Positions 12,629-37,282 of a DNA stretch of 37,282 bases are shown piece by piece (the stretch's first letter is position 1; every line of letters begins with the position of its first letter). Source of the DNA: a virus; the IMG/VR virus record IMGVR_UViG_3300045912_000186, positions 1 to 37,282 of that record. One strand, written 5' to 3'. Under the pieces are notes generated by a model, which did not search any database, was not told the DNA's origin, and was given only the letters and a program-made list of their open reading frames with translations. A program made the translations under genes and the position numbers.

Positions 12629-13131
12629 GGATCGCCGGCCTCGACCTCTCGACGTCCCGTATCGGCTACGCAGCCCCCGAGGGAGGCCTCCACAGCCTCT
12701 CGGCGAGAGCGAAGGCCGACGACGTGCCTCGCCGGCTCTACGAGCTCCTGACCGGCCTCGAGCGGCTCCTCCGGCTCTACCCACCGCTCCCCGACCTCGT
12801 CGCCGTCGAGGGGTACTCCCTCGCGTCGCCCGGGAGGATCTCCCTCGTCCGGCTCGGCGAGCTCGGAGGCGCGGTCCGGCTCCGGCTCTTCGAGCTCGAC
12901 GTCCCCTACGTCGAGATCCCCCCGAGCTCCGTCAAGCGACACGCGACCGGAGCAGGGAACGCCGACAAGTACCGGATGACGGCCCGAGCGATCGAGCTCG
13001 GAGCCCGTGGATCCGTGAACGACGACGAGGCCGACGCGTTCCTCCTCCGCCGGATGGCGCGGCAGGCCCACGGCCTCGAGACCGCCGAGCTCGATCACGA
13101 GCGCGACGCGATCGCGAACCTCTCGTGGTGA
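12625..13131 (+). CDS. RuvC-like Holliday junction resolvase
   Basis: A 168-residue nuclease of the RNase H-like fold. Acidic catalytic residues are visible: D7 (AGLDLSTSRIGYA), E62 (VAVEGYSLASPG), and D133/D134/D137 (VNDDEADAFLLR). The segment SSVKRHATGAGNADK (about 101-115) is the basic junction-binding motif typical of RuvC. It would cut four-way junctions made by the recombination pair or branched DNA before packaging. The start is GTG 12625 (GTGA overlap), and the 3' end overlaps the methyltransferase by 4 bp. Confidence 0.88.
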   Translation: MRIAGLDLSTSRIGYAAPEGGLHSLSARAKADDVPRRLYELLTGLERLLRLYPPLPDLVAVEGYSLASPGRISLVRLGELGGAVRLRLFELDVPYVEIPPSSVKRHATGAGNADKYRMTARAIELGARGSVNDDEADAFLLRRMARQAHGLETAELDHERDAIANLSW

Positions 13132-13847
13132 TCCCGATCTACCGCTCGGAGCTCGCCGAGGTCTACGCCGGCGACGCCCTCGACGTCCTCCCCGAGCTCG
13201 CGACCGAGTCCGTCGACCTCGTGATCGCCGACCCGCCCTACGGGGTCGAGTGGCGCTCGAACCGTCGCGCCGAGACCTTCGAGGAGCTCCTCAACGACGC
13301 GCCGGCCGACCGGGAGGGGATCCGGAAGGTCCTCGCCGAGGCCGTCCGGCTCGTCGGCCAGCACCGGCACCTCTACGTGTTCGGCCCCGACGACGTCCTC
13401 GCCGGCCTCCTCGTGAGCGAACGAGCCGAGCTCGTGTGGGACAAGGCCCGGCCCGGGATGGGGGACCTCTCGGCCCCGTGGGGACCCGCGCACGAGCTCC
13501 TCTCGTTCGCCGTCTCGAAGCACCGGCACGCCGGCAAGCGCGACGCCCCAGCCCTCCCCGTTCGGATGCGGAAGGGATCGGTCCTCCGATTCACGCCGCC
13601 GACCGGCCGGAACGTCCGACACCCCTCCGAGAAGCCCGTGGCGCTCCTCCGGGAGCTCGTCGAGTCGAGCACCCGCGCCGGCGAGCTCGTCCTCGACCCG
13701 TTCGCCGGAGTCGGCTCGACCGGGGTCGCCGCGATCCTCGCCGGCCGGAGGACGATCCTCGTCGAGCTCGACGACCGGTACGCCCGGATCGCCGTCCAGC
13801 GGATCCAGGACGCCGAGAAGCTCGCACGCGACGCCGCGAACGTGTGA
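13128..13847 (+). CDS. Site-specific DNA methyltransferase (adenine-type, DPPY)
   Basis: A 239-residue N6/N4 methyltransferase. The catalytic motif DPPYGVEWR is near residues 35-43 and the AdoMet-binding motif DPFAGVGSTG near residue 196. This order, catalytic motif first, marks the beta group. DPPY is commonly found in adenine-N6 enzymes, although N4-cytosine activity cannot be excluded. The target recognition part lies between (about 60-165). No restriction enzyme lies beside it, so it probably protects phage DNA from host restriction or marks it. GTG 13128 gives the usual 4-bp overlap; GTG 13125 is also possible. Confidence 0.87.
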   Translation: MIPIYRSELAEVYAGDALDVLPELATESVDLVIADPPYGVEWRSNRRAETFEELLNDAPADREGIRKVLAEAVRLVGQHRHLYVFGPDDVLAGLLVSERAELVWDKARPGMGDLSAPWGPAHELLSFAVSKHRHAGKRDAPALPVRMRKGSVLRFTPPTGRNVRHPSEKPVALLRELVESSTRAGELVLDPFAGVGSTGVAAILAGRRTILVELDDRYARIAVQRIQDAEKLARDAANV

Positions 13848-13857
13848 CCCTCGTCCG

Positions 13858-14052
13858 ATGATCTCCGTCTCTCTGCCCCTCGTGATCGGCGCGGTCGCCG
13901 CGGTGTACGCCGTGGCGCTCGTGTTCGTCGTGGCGCTCTGCCGCGCCGCCGCGCCGCCGTGGTGGGAGAGGACAGCGGAGGAGATCTCCGACCTCCCGGA
14001 GGCCGACCCCGAGGATCCCCGGGGTCGGCCGTCACAGGACGGTCGGACATGA
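13858..14052 (+). CDS. Small single-pass membrane protein
   Basis: A 64-residue protein with one long N-terminal hydrophobic segment (LVIGAVAAVYAVALVFVVAL, about residues 8-27) and then an acidic, proline-containing tail (EEISDLPEADPEDPRGRP). It lies between a methyltransferase and the helicase and overlaps the helicase start by 4 bp (ATGA). No family is recognised. An inner-membrane peptide in a replication operon could affect the host envelope or superinfection; this is only a suggestion. Confidence 0.6.
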   Translation: MISVSLPLVIGAVAAVYAVALVFVVALCRAAAPPWWERTAEEISDLPEADPEDPRGRPSQDGRT

Positions 14053-15692
14053 CGGACCACGACAGGAACCGACCGAGCGCGAATCGTAGCAACCGAGCCG
14101 GAGATCACCGAGTCCCCCCGCACAACCTCGACGCCGAGGAGAGCTCCATCGGAGCGGCCCTCCTCTCGATGAAGGCCGCGACCGACATCGTCGAGGCGCT
14201 CGAGGCCGGCGACTACTACAAGCCCGCCCACCAGCACATCTTCCACGCCGTCCGCTCGATCGTCGCCGCCGGCTCCCACGTCGACATCGTCACCGTAGGA
14301 GACGAGCTCCGCCGCGCCGGCCTCCTCGAAGAGATCGGAGGGAGTGAGTACCTCGCCGAGCTACAGAACGCGACGCCCTCGATCTCGAACGCCCACCGGT
14401 ACGCGAAGATCGTCCGCGACTGCGCGGTGCTCCGCCGGATGCTCTACGCCGCCGCGGACATCGCCGAGGCCGCGTACTCCCACGCCGACCCCGCCGAGGC
14501 CGTCGCCCGAGCTCAGGACGCCCTCGTCTCCCTCGCGCAGGTCGGGGACCCGTCGGCCGGCTCGACCCTCGACGTCGCCGACCTCGCCGCGCTCCTCGAG
14601 ACCGACCTCGAGCCGGAGTCCGGGACCTTCCTCACCCGCACCGACGGGACCTCCCTCCTCTACGCCGGCAAGATGCACGTCTTCCAAGCCGAGCCGAGCT
14701 CCGGGAAGTCGTGGATCTCCCTCCACGCCGTCCGCGAGGTCCTCGACATCGGCGGAGCAGCGATCTACCTCGACTTCGAGGACACCCCCGCCGGGATCCT
14801 CCGCCGGCTCCGCAACCTCGGCTGCAGTGTCGACGCGATGCGAGACCGGCTCGTCTACGCCCGACCCGTCGGCCGGTACGGAACGGCCGAGCGGCTACAG
14901 GTCGACCGGCTCCTCGACCGACTGAACCCCGACCTCGTGGTGATCGACGGAGTCGGAGAGTCCCTCTCCCGGAACGGCCTCTCGGAGGACAAGGCCGACG
15001 ACGTCCTCCGATGGTTCGACCTCTTCCCCCGCCCGATCGCCGAGACCGGCGCGGCCGTCCTGATGATCGACCACGTCGCGAAGGACCCCGAGCAGCGCGG
15101 CCGATGGGCCCGAGGCTCCGGAGCGAAGCTCGGCGCGGTCGACGGCGCGTCCTATCAGGTGAAGGTCCTCACCCCGTTCTCCCGGCACCGCTCCGGCGCG
15201 GTGAAGCTCGTCGTGGCGAAGGACCGGCCCGGCCAGTTCTCGATCGGCGAGACCGCCGCGATCGTCAAGATCGAACCGCACGCCGCCGGCGAACGCGTGG
15301 TGCTCACCGTCGAGCCCGACGGAGCAGACCTCGCGATCACCGACACACACAAGCCGACTCAGGTCATGGCGATGATCTCCGCCGAGATCGCCGGCGCGAA
15401 GGTCCCGCTCACCGCGAAGGCGCTCGAGGCGATCGTTCACGCGAAGCCGAGGACGATCCACGAGGCGCTCGCCCGACTGATCGCCGAAGGGTACGTCACG
15501 CAGTCCTCCGGCCGCGTGAAGAGCCTCCGGAACGTCCGCACGTACTACGGACCGTCGGCCCGCGAGGAACCGCCCGGCCTCGTCGAGGAGGAGCCTCCGC
15601 CGACCCTCTTCCCCGACGAGGCCGAGCCCGAGGAGAACCTCGAAGCTCGCCGCGCCTACCTCGACTCCATCATCCACGACCCCGAGTTCTAG
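14049..15692 (+). CDS. Replicative helicase chimera: DnaB N-domain plus RecA-like ATPase
   Basis: A 547-residue protein. Residues about 20-125 match the DnaB N-terminal domain (PPHNLDAEESSIGAALLS, ARFSE-like helices, LLEEIGGSEYLAELQNATPS). The ATPase part (about 195-400) has Walker A AEPSSGKS (214-221, K220), LDFED (241-245) and Walker B LVVID (296-300). It looks more like the compact RepA/AAA_25 hexameric ATPases than DnaB's own C-domain. A winged-helix-like segment (about 430-490, TAKALEAIVHAKPRTIHEALARL) follows. It would unwind phage DNA ahead of host polymerase. No primase or polymerase gene is present. Confidence 0.82.
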   Translation: MTDHDRNRPSANRSNRAGDHRVPPHNLDAEESSIGAALLSMKAATDIVEALEAGDYYKPAHQHIFHAVRSIVAAGSHVDIVTVGDELRRAGLLEEIGGSEYLAELQNATPSISNAHRYAKIVRDCAVLRRMLYAAADIAEAAYSHADPAEAVARAQDALVSLAQVGDPSAGSTLDVADLAALLETDLEPESGTFLTRTDGTSLLYAGKMHVFQAEPSSGKSWISLHAVREVLDIGGAAIYLDFEDTPAGILRRLRNLGCSVDAMRDRLVYARPVGRYGTAERLQVDRLLDRLNPDLVVIDGVGESLSRNGLSEDKADDVLRWFDLFPRPIAETGAAVLMIDHVAKDPEQRGRWARGSGAKLGAVDGASYQVKVLTPFSRHRSGAVKLVVAKDRPGQFSIGETAAIVKIEPHAAGERVVLTVEPDGADLAITDTHKPTQVMAMISAEIAGAKVPLTAKALEAIVHAKPRTIHEALARLIAEGYVTQSSGRVKSLRNVRTYYGPSAREEPPGLVEEEPPPTLFPDEAEPEENLEARRAYLDSIIHDPEF

Positions 15693-15701
15693 GAGACCCC
15701 G

Positions 15702-16304
15702 ATGCCGATCCACCCCGACAACCGCGACCGGTACCCCGCCGAGTGGCCCGAGATCTCGAAGAGGATCCGAACCGAGCGCGCCGGCGACCGGTGCGAGTGT
15801 CGCGGCCAGTGTGGACACGACCACCGGCTCGAGGCCGGCCCGACCTCCGGCGAGCGATGCACGGCCCGGAACCGGGAACCTCACCCCGTCACGACCTCGA
15901 CCGTCGTCCTCACCGTCGCCCACCTCGACCACACTCCGGAGAACGTCGACGAGGCGAACCTCCTCGCCCTCTGCCAGCGATGCCACCTCGCATACGACCG
16001 GGACCACCACGCCGCCGAACGAGCTCGACGCCGGAACCCCGTCGACCTCACGAGCTCGAGCCCGCTCGTCCTCGCCGGCGACTGCCGCGACGTCCTCCCG
16101 ACGCTCCCGACGGCCTCCGTCGACGCCGTCGTCACCTCGCCGCCCTACTTGAAGCAGCGCGCCTACGGACAGGACACCGCGCACGAGCTCGGCCTCGAGG
16201 AGACCGTCGCCGACTACGTCCGGAACCTGGTCGGGATCGAGCTCTACGCCGACCGGCCCGAGCTCCTCCACAAGGCCACAACCCGAAAGGACTCCCCGTC
16301 GTGA
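15702..16304 (+). CDS. HNH-type protein fused to a truncated methyltransferase
   Basis: A 200-residue protein. Residues 1-110 look like an HNH nuclease with zinc ligands (C31, C33, C37, the H74/H77 of AHLDH, and CQRCH at 91-95). Residues 121-177 read as the N-terminus of an N4-cytosine-type methyltransferase: LAGDCRDVLPTLPTASVDAV, then TSPPYLKQRAYG. After YVRNLV it jumps to GIELYADRPELL (178-189), which is how such enzymes end. The AdoMet motif FxGxG and target domain are missing, so the enzyme half cannot work alone. An in-frame internal deletion explains this best. SD GGAG is at 15691-15694. Confidence 0.72.
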   Translation: MPIHPDNRDRYPAEWPEISKRIRTERAGDRCECRGQCGHDHRLEAGPTSGERCTARNREPHPVTTSTVVLTVAHLDHTPENVDEANLLALCQRCHLAYDRDHHAAERARRRNPVDLTSSSPLVLAGDCRDVLPTLPTASVDAVVTSPPYLKQRAYGQDTAHELGLEETVADYVRNLVGIELYADRPELLHKATTRKDSPS

Positions 16305-16450
16305 AGAAGATCCCGCTCTGGCCCCTCTTCCTCCTCGCTCTCGCCGCCGTCGTCGCGTGGTACGGAGAGCCGAAGCCCGTCGCCCTCGTCGTCGCCGGCC
16401 TCGGAGCTCTCACCGCCGCCTACGACCTCTTCCGCGAGCTCGACCGATGA
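16301..16450 (+). CDS. Very small membrane protein
   Basis: A 49-residue protein with GTG start, overlapping both neighbours by 4 bp. Two hydrophobic stretches (PLWPLFLLALAAVVAWYG and PVALVVAGLGALTAAYDLF) are separated by the charged EPKP, suggesting a two-pass hairpin with a short basic N-terminus. The ribosome site CCGAAAGGA (16283-16291) lies in the end of the upstream gene. No family is recognised. It is below the size usually annotated, but the coupled overlaps and clean topology support it. Confidence 0.6.
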   Translation: MKKIPLWPLFLLALAAVVAWYGEPKPVALVVAGLGALTAAYDLFRELDR

Positions 16451-17400
16451 CCCTCGACCTCGACGCCCCGTGGAACCTCGTCACCGGCGACGCGCTCCGA
16501 GTCCTGATGGACCTCCCGACCGGATGCGCGGACGCGGTGGTCACCGACCCGCCGTACTCCTCCGGCGGATTCACCCGCGGCGACCGCATGGGGTCGACCA
16601 CGAACAAGTACGTCCAGACCGCGACGCAGATCGAGCGGCCCGACTTCGCCGGCGACAACCGCGACCAGCGCGGCTACCTCGTGTGGTGCTCCGTGTGGAT
16701 GGAGGAGGCGCTCCGAGTCGTGAAGCCCGGCGGCTCGATCCTCACGTTCACCGACTGGCGACAGCTACCGGTCACGACCGACGCCGTCCAGAGTGGCGGC
16801 TGGGTCTGGCGCGGCATCGTCCCGTGGGACAAGGGAGAGGGGACGCGCCCGAGGCGAGGAGGGTTCCGAGCTCAGGCCGAGTACGTCGTGTGGGGGACCG
16901 CCGGCCACCTCCGAGAGGACCACGAGGAGTACCTCCCCGGGTTCCTCCACGTCGCCGGCGACGAGTACGCGACCGGCTCCCTCGTCGTCCCGATCCGGCA
17001 GGCCGACAAGCACCACATCACCGGCAAGCCGACCGACCTCATGCGCGAGCTCGTGAGGATCGCACCTCGAGGAGGTCTCATCGTCGACCCGTTCGCCGGC
17101 TCCGGGACGACCGGGGTCGCCGCAGTCGAGCAGGGGAGGAGGTTCCTCGGAGTCGAGAAAACCGCCGAGTACGCCGAGATCTCCCGGGCCCGGATCGAGG
17201 CCGCGGCGAGCTCGCCGACCCTCTTCGAGCTCCCCTCGATCACCGAGGCCGAGCGGCCCGCGGCCCTCTTCGAGCTCGAGCCCGATGTCTGCCCGCGATG
17301 CAACGGGGAGCAGGTCGTCGAGCGGCTCGCGACGCCCGACGAGGTCGACGAGGGGTACGAGCTCGGCATCGCCTACGACCCGTGCCCCGCGTGCTCGTGA
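16447..17400 (+). CDS. Second DNA methyltransferase (DPPY) with C-terminal zinc ribbon
   Basis: A 317-residue enzyme of the N6/N4 family. DPPY is at 34-37 and the AdoMet motif DPFAGSGTTG at 214-223, again the beta-type order. The C-terminal tail adds a likely zinc ribbon: CPRCNG (about 282-287) and CPACS at the very end. That tail is unusual for such enzymes and could aid DNA binding. It resembles many phage-encoded solitary methyltransferases that guard against host restriction. Its sequence differs clearly from the enzyme at 13128, so the two probably have different target sites. ATGA overlap at the start. Confidence 0.87.
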   Translation: MTLDLDAPWNLVTGDALRVLMDLPTGCADAVVTDPPYSSGGFTRGDRMGSTTNKYVQTATQIERPDFAGDNRDQRGYLVWCSVWMEEALRVVKPGGSILTFTDWRQLPVTTDAVQSGGWVWRGIVPWDKGEGTRPRRGGFRAQAEYVVWGTAGHLREDHEEYLPGFLHVAGDEYATGSLVVPIRQADKHHITGKPTDLMRELVRIAPRGGLIVDPFAGSGTTGVAAVEQGRRFLGVEKTAEYAEISRARIEAAASSPTLFELPSITEAERPAALFELEPDVCPRCNGEQVVERLATPDEVDEGYELGIAYDPCPACS

Positions 17401-20276: not shown

Positions 20277-20355
20277 ACCCCGGCCGGCTACAGTCGACCA
20301 CGACCGACCGCCCTCCCGGTACCAGGAGGCGCTGCAGACCGAGCGGCCGGCGCAC

Positions 20356-20401
20356 GAGATCCCGACACCTCCCCCCCGCCCGGGAGGACCGTCGGGATCT
20401 C
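20356..20401. terminator. Long perfect hairpin between convergent genes
   Basis: GAGATCCCGAC (20356-20366) pairs perfectly with GTCGGGATCTC (20391-20401). The interior adds CCTCCC against GGGAGG. The + strand early unit ends at 20276 and the minus-strand gene ends at 20444, so the hairpin sits where a two-way terminator would be. There is no U-run, which is common for actinobacterial terminators. The 20277-20443 gap holds nothing else I recognise. Confidence 0.6.
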
Positions 20402-20443
20402 GCCGCGTCCGGCCCTCATCCCGACGCGAGAAACCGGAAGAGC

Positions 20444-20620
20444 TCAGGCCACCGCCGGCTCGAGGTCCGGCAGGCCCAGCACCACCACGAGATCGAGGAG
20501 CTCCACCGGCCGGCCCGTCTCCCGCTCCACCAGCACACCGTCGGCGCGCTCGACCACGGGGACCACCACGGCCCCACCGTCAACCGTGACCACAGCCACC
20601 GGGAGCTCGACACCGAACAT
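20444..20620 (-). CDS. Small minus-strand protein of unknown function
   Basis: A 58-residue frame, rich in Val, Leu and acidic residues: FGVELPVAVVTVDGGAVVV, PVVERADGVLVERETGRP, then VELLDLVVVLGLPDLEP. Alternating hydrophobic residues suggest a small beta domain rather than a membrane protein. The ATG at 20620 is preferred over GTG 20626 because a -10-like TACGCT ends 6 nt before it, as for a leaderless mRNA. It points away from the terminase genes and ends toward the 20356-20401 hairpin. No family is recognised. Confidence 0.5.
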   Translation of the reverse strand: MFGVELPVAVVTVDGGAVVVPVVERADGVLVERETGRPVELLDLVVVLGLPDLEPAVA

Positions 20621-20626
20621 ACCCAC

Positions 20627-20632
20627 AGCGTA
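20627..20632 (-). promoter_or_regulatory. Candidate -10 element for the minus-strand gene
   Basis: On the minus strand TACGCT occupies 20632-20627 and the ATG begins 6 nt later at 20620. This is the same hexamer and nearly the same spacing as at 17433. No convincing -35 is seen, and the upstream bases overlap a DnaA-box-like site, which could let DnaA affect this promoter. Confidence 0.45.
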
Positions 20633-20641
20633 ACGAAATCC

Positions 20642-20791
20642 TGTGGATAAGGCCAGGGACTACCCGACCTCGAGGGGACCGAGTGGGCTGCGCTCCCGGC
20701 CCCGGTGCTCCCCTCCCAGGACGGGGAGCATACCGAGGACGTCAAGGACTCCGCAAGCACACCCCCTCGTCCCCTCGCGCCCTGTGGACAA
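20642..20791. other. Candidate replication origin with two DnaA-box-like sites
   Basis: TGTGGATAA at 20642-20650 is the complement of TTATCCACA, and TGTGGACAA at 20783-20791 is the complement of TTGTCCACA. Both are perfect DnaA-box 9-mers (the second is the usual actinobacterial form). They lie in the same orientation 141 bp apart, in a 195-bp gap between a minus-strand gene and the HNH gene. The gap is not AT-rich, so this remains a proposal. Confidence 0.4.
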
Positions 20792-20801
20792 CCCCCTCGG
20801 C

Positions 20802-20807
20802 TACCAT
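20802..20807 (+). promoter_or_regulatory. Possible -10 element before the HNH gene
   Basis: TACCAT (TANNNT) ends 8 nt before the ATG at 20816. No SD is visible in front of that ATG. No -35 consensus is seen at the right distance, so support comes only from the shared arrangement with three other starts. Confidence 0.3.
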
Positions 20808-20815
20808 CCCCCAAC

Positions 20816-21322
20816 ATGCCAACCACCCCGGCATCCCCCTGTGCCACCCCCGGCTGCCCCAACCTCCGCCCCTGCCCCACACACACAGTCACAGCGTGGG
20901 CAGGCGCACGAGATCGCCGCCGCCAACGGACAGGCCTCAGCGGCTCGGCCGAACAGAAACGCAACCGGCGCATCCTCCGCCGCCATCGCGGGATCTGCCA
21001 CGTCTGCCAGATGCCAGGAGCCGACCAAGTCGACCACGTCATCCCTCTCGCCGAGGGAGGACCCGACACGGACGACAACCTCGCCCCGGTCCACGCCGTG
21101 CCATGTCACCAGCGAAAGACCGCAGAGGAGCGCGCACGAGGACGCGCACGAGCTCGAGGAGGGGGTGGGGAGGAGCGCGCACGAGGACGCGCACGAGCTC
21201 GAGGAGGGGGTGGGGTGGCACCGCGGTCAGGCGGAGCCGGGGGGTCGGAGGGGGCTGCGTCCGCGCCCGAGGACAGGTTTCGAGGCCGCTTCCCCGGACG
21301 GTCGGGGTCGTGGGATGGGTAG
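20816..21322 (+). CDS. HNH endonuclease next to the terminase genes
   Basis: A 168-residue protein. HNH signature: CHVC (61-64), DQVDHVIPLAEGG with D73/H74, DDNLAP with N88, and CHQRK (97-101). Extra N-terminal Cys residues (C9, C14, C20) may bind another zinc. In cos-type siphoviruses an HNH protein beside the terminase helps the large terminase cut genome ends; its location fits that role. After residue 102 the protein turns into a low-complexity Arg/Gly tail with two identical 15-residue units encoded by a 45-bp tandem repeat. The tail may be dispensable. ATG 20816 is preferred over an in-frame start at 20705. Confidence 0.8.
   Translation: MPTTPASPCATPGCPNLRPCPTHTVTAWAGARDRRRQRTGLSGSAEQKRNRRILRRHRGICHVCQMPGADQVDHVIPLAEGGPDTDDNLAPVHAVPCHQRKTAEERARGRARARGGGGEERARGRARARGGGGVAPRSGGAGGSEGAASAPEDRFRGRFPGRSGSWDG
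21125..21214 (+). repeat. Perfect 45-bp tandem duplication
   Basis: Two identical adjacent 45-bp units (21125-21169 and 21170-21214) encode EERARGRARARGGGG twice in the tail of the HNH protein. The period is a multiple of three, so the frame is kept. Exact identity suggests a recent slippage or duplication. Confidence 0.85.
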
Positions 21323-35895: not shown

Positions 35896-37282
35896 ATGCA
35901 ACTAGGAGGGTTTGGCGGCGGCGGCGGGAAGGTCGGGACCGGCTACGTCAAGATCCGGCCGGACGCGGAAGGGTTCGGCCGAGAGCTCGACTCGGAGGTC
36001 GGACGCGAGGCGGAGACCTCCTCCGGTCTGATCGGTGGCCGAGCTGGCAAGGCGTTCCGCGGCGCGTTCCTCGCCGGCACCGCAGCGATGGCGAAAGGCG
36101 TGTTCGACTTCGCGTCGTTCGACCAGGGGATGCGCGAGGTGTTCACTCTGCTACCCGGGATCTCTGGTCCGGTCATGGCGGAAATGACTTCGCAGGTCAA
36201 GGACTTCGCCGGAGAGTTCGGGGTGCTCCCGAACGAGGTGATTCCGGCGCTCTACGACTCCCTCTCGGCCGGCGTCGACCGAGACAACGTGTTCACGTTC
36301 CTTGAGGACGCGCAACGTCTCGCGAAGGCGGGAGCAACCGACCTCGCTACCTCCGTCGACGGACTGACAACCGTCCTCAATGCCTACGGCATGGAAGCGA
36401 CGGAGGCCGAGCGCGTCTCCGACGTGCTCTTCACCGCGATGCAAGCAGGCAAGACGACGATCGGCGAAATGAGCTCGGCCATGTTCCAGGTCGCGCCGAT
36501 CGCGTCGTCGTTCGGGGTGTCCATTGAGGACGTCGCCGCCGCGACAGCCACGCTCACCGCTCAAGGCACCCCGACGTCGGTCGTGATGACACAGCTCAAG
36601 GGAGCGATCTCCGAGCTCGGCAAGGAAGGCACGAAGGCCAGCAAGAACTTCCAGGAAATGAGCGGCCAGACGTTCCCGGAGTTCATCGCCTCCGGCGGGA
36701 GCCTTGTCGACGCCGCCGAACTGATGAAGCGCGGAGCCGACGAGCTCGGTCTGTCCGTGGTCGACCTCTTTGGCTCGATCGAAGCCGGACAAGCGTTCGT
36801 CGGTCTCTCGAACGACCTCGAGACCGCCGCCGCGAACCTTGACGCCACACGCACGAGCGCCGGCGCAACGGCCGAAGGGTTCGAGATGATGGACCAGGGA
36901 CTTGCCGCCACGATGGAAAAGCTCAAGGCGAGGTTCGCGGTCGTGTTCCTCAACCTCGGCGAGACTCTCGCACCGTTCGTCGGAGCCGTCGGAGGAGCTC
37001 TCGCGACGGTCCTCGACCTCTTCACGAAGATTCCAGCCCCAGCACAGGGACTCGTCATCATCTTCGCCACGCTTACCGCCGGCATCATCGGTTTCGCCGG
37101 GCCGATCCTGCGGGCGATCGAGGTGTTCCGGATGCTCGGCACGACCATGAGTGTCCTCGCTGCGAACCCGGTCGTCCTGGTCCTTCTCGGCCTCGCCGCC
37201 GTAGCGTTTGTGATCTACAAGAACTGGGACACCGTGAAGCAGCTTCTCGGCGCAACGTGGGACGCGATCCAGACCGCCGCTC
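35896..37282 (+). CDS. Tape measure protein, N-terminal part (continues at base 1)
   Basis: Start ATG 35896 with CGGAGGA (35885-35891) as ribosome site; the frame is open to the window end and continues in frame at base 1. The 363 residues before the repeated segment include a Gly-rich start, then VKIRPDAEGFGRELDSEVGR. A TP901-type tape measure core follows (MREVFTLLPGISGPVMAEMT, then FGVLPNEVIPALYDSLSAGV, AMQAGKTTIGEMSSAMFQVA, and TAQGTPTSVVMTQLKGAISE), the domain that usually spans the first 350 residues. The last 298 bases duplicate bases 1-298, so this and the first entry are one gene. Confidence 0.95.
   Translation, partial: MQLGGFGGGGGKVGTGYVKIRPDAEGFGRELDSEVGREAETSSGLIGGRAGKAFRGAFLAGTAAMAKGVFDFASFDQGMREVFTLLPGISGPVMAEMTSQVKDFAGEFGVLPNEVIPALYDSLSAGVDRDNVFTFLEDAQRLAKAGATDLATSVDGLTTVLNAYGMEATEAERVSDVLFTAMQAGKTTIGEMSSAMFQVAPIASSFGVSIEDVAAATATLTAQGTPTSVVMTQLKGAISELGKEGTKASKNFQEMSGQTFPEFIASGGSLVDAAELMKRGADELGLSVVDLFGSIEAGQAFVGLSNDLETAAANLDATRTSAGATAEGFEMMDQGLAATMEKLKARFAVVFLNLGETLAPFVGAVGGALATVLDLFTKIPAPAQGLVIIFATLTAGIIGFAGPILRAIEVFRMLGTTMSVLAANPVVLVLLGLAAVAFVIYKNWDTVKQLLGATWDAIQTAA
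36985..37282. repeat. Contig-end overlap, right copy
   Basis: Matches bases 1-298 over its full length (294 of 298 identical). The differences change one Lys codon to Arg (AAG at 127-129, CGG here) and are otherwise silent (CTC/CTT and TTC/TTT). The silent bias suggests natural variants rather than read error. Confidence 0.93.

Follow-up and report, generated by a model that had tools for sequence, protein, structure and literature searches.

Some actinophages make abundant RNAs at the right end of the genome that have no known role. In the Cluster A mycobacteriophages L5, D29 and StarStuff, a leftward non-coding stretch (Pleft) lies near the right end, and Rhodococcus phage WC1 has a non-coding RNA at its far right; the available parts of the papers on these phages give the roles of the RNAs as not known (PMC5712189, PMC10986025). 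According to the available sections of the paper on RNA-based Cluster A prophage origins, non-RepA prophages of this cluster replicate from a reverse-strand non-coding RNA region that is necessary and sufficient, and the term DnaA is absent from the main text of that paper (PMC7157519). The start of replication often goes unexplained in phages that lack a recognisable initiator. In E. coli, repression of the mioC promoter acts through the promoter's own DnaA box, as stated in the accessible part of PMC5835720, and the HNH protein gp74 of phage HK97 promotes cos cleavage, as stated in the accessible part of PMC9410871. We found no description of the element reported here in the literature searched on DnaA boxes as phage origins, on structured or right-end phage RNAs, and on HNH proteins and cos.

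We analysed the IMG/VR virus record IMGVR_UViG_3300045912_000186 over its whole length of 37,282 bp (the window). Both ends of the window carry parts of a tape-measure gene (35896-37281 and 1-1158), so the record is most simply read as a circularly permuted complete genome. The gene order is tail, lysis, recombination and replication (including a DnaB-like helicase), the gap under study, HNH, TerS, TerL, portal, protease and capsid. The gap extends from the start of a leftward 58-aa ORF at 20620 to the start of the HNH gene at 20816, and the bounds given in a preliminary description (20627-20815) were thus correct to within a few bases. The same description had pointed to a helicase without an initiator. 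The DnaB-like helicase gene is indeed present (13959-15692), and no initiator was matched among the proteins scanned, which were a subset of the ORFs (30 with PHROGs, 20 with Pfam); these scans matched no ParA or ParB either. The helicase gene and a second HNH gene (15702-16304) are flanked by two DNA methyltransferase genes (13125-13847 and 16357-17400).

Two DnaA-type 9-mers lie in the same direction on the minus strand of the gap, where they had been reported. Box1, TTATCCACA, occupies 20642-20650, directly upstream of a -10-like hexamer of the 58-aa gene, and box2, TTGTCCACA, occupies 20783-20791, its end 5 nt short of the 5' arm of the outer helix in the RNA described below. The reported spacing of 141 bp is right when counted from start to start; 132 bp lie between the boxes. 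The pattern TTRTCCACA matches the window at just these two places (expected 0.05), and at least two matches were obtained in 1 of 100 shuffles. Genome G001 (37,862 bp) also has exactly two such sites, both at this locus, and G002 (40,042 bp) has a single one, which is box1.

We fetched 12 loci by TerL relationship. The element was present in seven other contigs and, with the window, in six distinct sequences that stem from about three lineages, which we count as a limit on reading the gap as a control locus. The five besides the window are L003, L004, L007, L010 and L011 (TerL identity to the window 91, 91, 90, 67 and 66%, respectively); L005 and L018/G001 are identical to L004 here. Retention of the boxes in relatives had been proposed as a check, and both were retained 141 bp apart in all six sequences. 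Indels between them are compensated: the window splits the distance into 64+77, the other five into 63+78. Box1 reads TTATCCACA in the window, L003 and L007, TTGTCCACA in L004 and L011, and TTATCCCCA in L010; for box2, the four close sequences have TTGTCCACA, and L010 and L011 have TTTTCCACA. As a sequence match, TTRTCCACA was found in 9 of these 12 box copies and TTDTCCACA in 11. The 11 copies differ at position 3 alone (A, G or T), where DnaA boxes tolerate change. The exception, box1 of L010, departs from the pattern at position 7; this change should weaken DnaA binding and counts against control by DnaA. In the available part of PMC5835720, TTTTCCACA corresponds to the R5-type DnaA box of E. 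coli mioC, an E. coli-type match from which the specificity of the host's DnaA may differ. Host DnaA is the presumed binder of both boxes.

The stretch between the boxes had been described as a noncoding gap. The boxes and their spacing were borne out, but an RNA-like structure between them had been overlooked. The predicted RNA is 112 nt long in the window and runs on the minus strand from 20779 to 20668. Its outer helix, P1, pairs approximately 20750-20777 with 20671-20699; a 3-bp mini-hairpin (GUC-CUU-GAC, 20741-20749) sits at the junction, and a hairpin, P3, with a conserved UA bulge pairs approximately 20701-20713 with 20723-20738. When folded, all six sequences gave this shape on the minus strand, with outer helix, junction, mini-hairpin and bulged hairpin. 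Pairwise identity among the six falls as low as 0.60 across the element; when the distant pair is compared with the close group, the hairpin and GTCAAGGAC reach 1.00, more than the boxes themselves.

Covariation supported the fold. In an alignment fitted to the structure, which leans towards the structure by construction, 97.2% of 251 cells were paired and double changes occurred in 11 pairs (18 cells); the covariation score was 0.290 vs 0.112 after shuffling, and none of 500 shuffles equalled the pair count or the score. A MAFFT alignment, which was not fitted, gave 91.8% paired cells and double changes in 8 pairs (11 cells), the pair count being reached by 3 and the cell count by 0 of 500 shuffles. 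The minus fold of the window (−74.7 kcal/mol) lies below all 1860 sampled 112-nt windows of the genome and has a z of −4.7 against dinucleotide shuffles.

The minus strand has 25 G-U cells vs 1 A-C cell, and this asymmetry picks it as the putative single-stranded form. Individual folds gave 42-45 pairs with 3-8 G-U on the minus strand and 34-41 pairs with 0-2 G-U on the plus strand, and RNAalifold gave −53.6 and −38.1, respectively. The column-shuffle control was done on the plus strand only, where the value of −38.1 was reached by 0 of 200 shuffles. With the plus fold weaker and G-U almost absent from it, we rejected a plus-strand RNA or a cruciform. Protein coding across the gap was also rejected, because open frames are expected at such GC and their phase relative to HNH and the small gene varies. 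We infer that the structured RNA is transcribed leftward. No Rfam family matched at gathering score (one scan gave two chance-level matches, the other none at E 0.5), and we looked for a tRNA or tmRNA and found none. On the minus strand upstream of the RNA, no sigma-70-type promoter site was seen and nothing is conserved beyond box2, which counts against the gap being a control locus.

The 58-aa gene (20444-20620, minus strand) encodes a valine-rich, conserved protein whose homologues are 43-95% identical, with 3-bp gaps in frame. Sequence searches of Pfam, phage records and the PDB assigned it to no known family, and its AlphaFold model was poor (mean pLDDT 65.4). A -10-like hexamer, TACGCT (20627-20632, minus strand), stands 6 nt before the start codon. 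In all six sequences, the small gene is preceded by the pattern TANNNT at a distance of 6-7 nt from its start (background 0.0017 per position). This suggests that the gene may start leaderless and that its -35 zone would contain box1; a conserved ribosome site was not seen for this gene. A transcript driven by TANNNT would exclude the RNA, so that the RNA and the 58-aa gene may be separate units. Beyond the end of the gene, between convergent genes, lies a 12-bp perfect inverted repeat (20355-20402). By eye, a similar stem is present in L003, L004 and L010 (four of six sequences with the window), with changed but still pairing bases in L004 and L010, and it was not seen in L007 or L011. The stem is likely a two-way terminator that ends the leftward unit.

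On the other side of the gap, the HNH endonuclease gene (20816-21322, plus strand) has its domain at approximately 20816-21142, and its frame continues through a cos-like stretch. A -10-like TACCAT (20802-20807, plus strand) stands 8 nt before its start; it is kept only in the close group (L003, L004 and L007) and is absent from L010 and L011. In the window, 45 bp are perfectly duplicated in tandem in the C-terminal tail of HNH (21125-21215); this duplication is absent from the aligned L003, L004 and L007. Another locus, L009, begins directly before the HNH start codon with TCCGATCT (positions 1-8), which we take to be the tail of a widely used Illumina adapter; the start of L009 is probably an untrimmed read end.

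After the HNH domain, a conserved G-rich non-coding stretch at 21243-21258 is the presumed cos region. The contigs of L002, L006 and L008 all begin at one aligned place, window 21246-21258, and the right end of G001 crosses the presumed cos place, giving two copies. Of five named phages that we inspected, three (RootBeer, Elener and Zirinka) have HNH as their last annotated gene and Rowa has it as the penultimate one; in SF1 an HNH annotation is absent from the last 751 bp. The three with HNH last have their terminase genes at the opposite end, and Elener has a methyltransferase first. The phage thus looks cos-type, and its genome probably ends near 21250, after the HNH gene, although contig starts may also be assembly effects; the exact cos position given here is putative. 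Since HNH is terminal or near-terminal in four of the five named phages, and since three contigs start past the HNH domain (21246-21258), we rejected the gap, which lies upstream of HNH and not between HNH and TerS as a cosN would, as cosN. The distance of the gap to the presumed cos is ~450-600 bp; relative to the presumed right end, the gap lies ~0.5 kb inward.

The module was narrowly distributed in our searches. DNA-pattern searches of viral contigs returned the same seven contigs both times. A looser 17-mer pattern gave 17 stretches, 10 of them new, of which one scored E 0.92 and the other nine nothing. A covariance model of the structured RNA (R1) recovers the six sequences and their copies; applied to 62 sources and 25 whole records, it found nothing that passed E 0.06 beyond these six and identical copies. 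The sources included those chosen for their upstream flank from 80 loci listed with a TerL profile. GTDB contigs gave 0 matches. An HNH profile gave 14 loci, and R1 matched none of the six that were searched with it; a small-protein profile gave five loci, all known already. L127 has an HNH with 57% identity, and the RNA cassette is replaced there by a gene that is WhiB-like by its motif only (L127:2650-3010) and runs directly into HNH; no boxes, RNA or small gene were seen upstream of HNH. The module is also absent from RootBeer, Elener, Zirinka, Rowa and SF1. Judged from L127, which is without boxes, RNA and small gene, the module appears to be a dispensable cassette across the wider group; this argues against an indispensable universal origin, not against an origin within this clade.

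We consider that the gap is best explained as a leftward RNA and small-protein locus near the presumed right end of a cos-type genome, with the two DnaA-type boxes as control sites, and we give this reading a probability of about one half. In leftward order, it would comprise box2, the structured RNA of ~112 nt, box1, the TANNNT promoter element, the 58-aa gene and the hairpin terminator. Host DnaA or another protein with similar specificity would bind the two boxes at their fixed distance; at box1, binding would overlap the -35 zone of the small-gene promoter, and at box2 it would sit at the 5' edge of the RNA. DnaA could in this way switch the leftward unit, and any direction assigned to this regulation would be our inference from the sequence. 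The RNA itself would be a stable non-coding RNA, comparable to the leftward RNAs that Cluster A mycobacteriophages have at their right end.

The preliminary description had proposed that host DnaA starts replication in the gap. In a fuller form of this proposal, DnaA would bind the boxes, the flank of box1 would melt, the helicase would be loaded and the leftward RNA would prime or control initiation, as in RNA-based prophage origins; we regard this as possible but tentative. The boxes are unique, conserved and fixed at 141 bp, a helicase is present while an initiator was unmatched among the scanned proteins, and the RNA-dependent replication of non-RepA Cluster A prophages offers a precedent. 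GC skew, which had been suggested as a check, also has a minimum nearby: after detrending, it is found 369, 369 and 359 bp away from the core of three genomes, but these genomes are related and the minimum falls where late genes, early genes and the presumed cos meet. A 50-mer at 20616 in the flank of box1 is in the top 0.13% of the genome for AT content; at 48% AT, this best candidate is low in absolute terms and makes no clear unwinding element. There are also just two boxes, the module is missing from L127 and the five named phages, and parABS was unmatched among the scanned proteins, unlike in known RNA-based origins. An origin made of boxes only would moreover leave the conserved RNA structure and the leftward gene with its promoter-like signal unexplained, so that the original proposal stands only in part. 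We find it doubtful, more so than an origin in general, that the two boxes frame a leftward RNA that primes or licenses replication beside the genome end under the control of DnaA. If this were true, a phage without an initiator would tie its replication to host DnaA, and the origin would be neither iteron/Rep, nor lambda-O-like, nor a parABS-linked RNA origin.

Two further explanations seem improbable to us. The boxes and the fold might serve DNA packaging or end processing as sites for a phage protein such as TerS or HNH, with the fold acting as single-stranded DNA, a cruciform or a packaging RNA. The place of the element immediately before HNH-TerS-TerL, within 600 bp of the presumed cos, fits such a role, and so does a box distance that is strictly kept while the intervening sequence changes. 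However, cos itself appears beyond the HNH domain, named relatives with the same end layout do not have the element, dominance of G-U on one strand is not expected of a cruciform, and the adjoining leftward gene has a promoter-like signal. This signal also bears on the second explanation, in which the RNA would serve the 58-aa gene as its 5' leader or as a riboswitch and the boxes would be incidental repeats: in all six sequences the RNA does share the strand of the gene and lie upstream of it, but TANNNT just before the start codon predicts that transcription begins after the RNA. Moreover, we saw no conserved ribosome site at the gene, and the boxes are too conserved and too exactly spaced for incidental repeats.

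The segment offers a compact predicted RNA whose fold can be tested, together with a partner gene and two DnaA-type sites that are unique and constant in their spacing. One small piece of DNA would thus allow control by DnaA of phage RNA expression or replication to be asked about. In position and direction, the RNA/small-protein unit resembles the right-end RNAs of L5, D29 and StarStuff, where, as described in the available parts of PMC5712189 and PMC10986025, the non-coding stretch also runs leftward upstream of a small leftward gene. With filters off, R1 found nothing convincing at the right end of D29 (best E 0.27), and the D29 right-end stretch that we searched contains no DnaA-type boxes. 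Unlike in those phages, only the RNA/58-aa unit runs leftward here, and the RNA is putative. The likeness to the far-right RNA of WC1 is one of position alone, as far as the same sources describe it.

The boxes TTATCCACA and TTTTCCACA match the strong and the mioC-type box among the oriC R1-R4 and mioC R5 boxes in the available part of PMC5835720; unlike those boxes, the two putative ones here lie 141 bp apart around a predicted structured RNA. HNH, TerS and TerL occur together, as at HK97-type cos ends, but here the boxes and the RNA are located upstream of the HNH gene, away from the presumed cos. As in the origins of Alma, LadyBird and RedRock, a reverse-strand RNA (predicted here) is a candidate for the element that determines replication in an actinophage lacking an initiator gene. 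Those origins are central and parABS-linked according to the available text of PMC7157519, whereas the present locus lies near the right end and parABS was unmatched among the proteins scanned.
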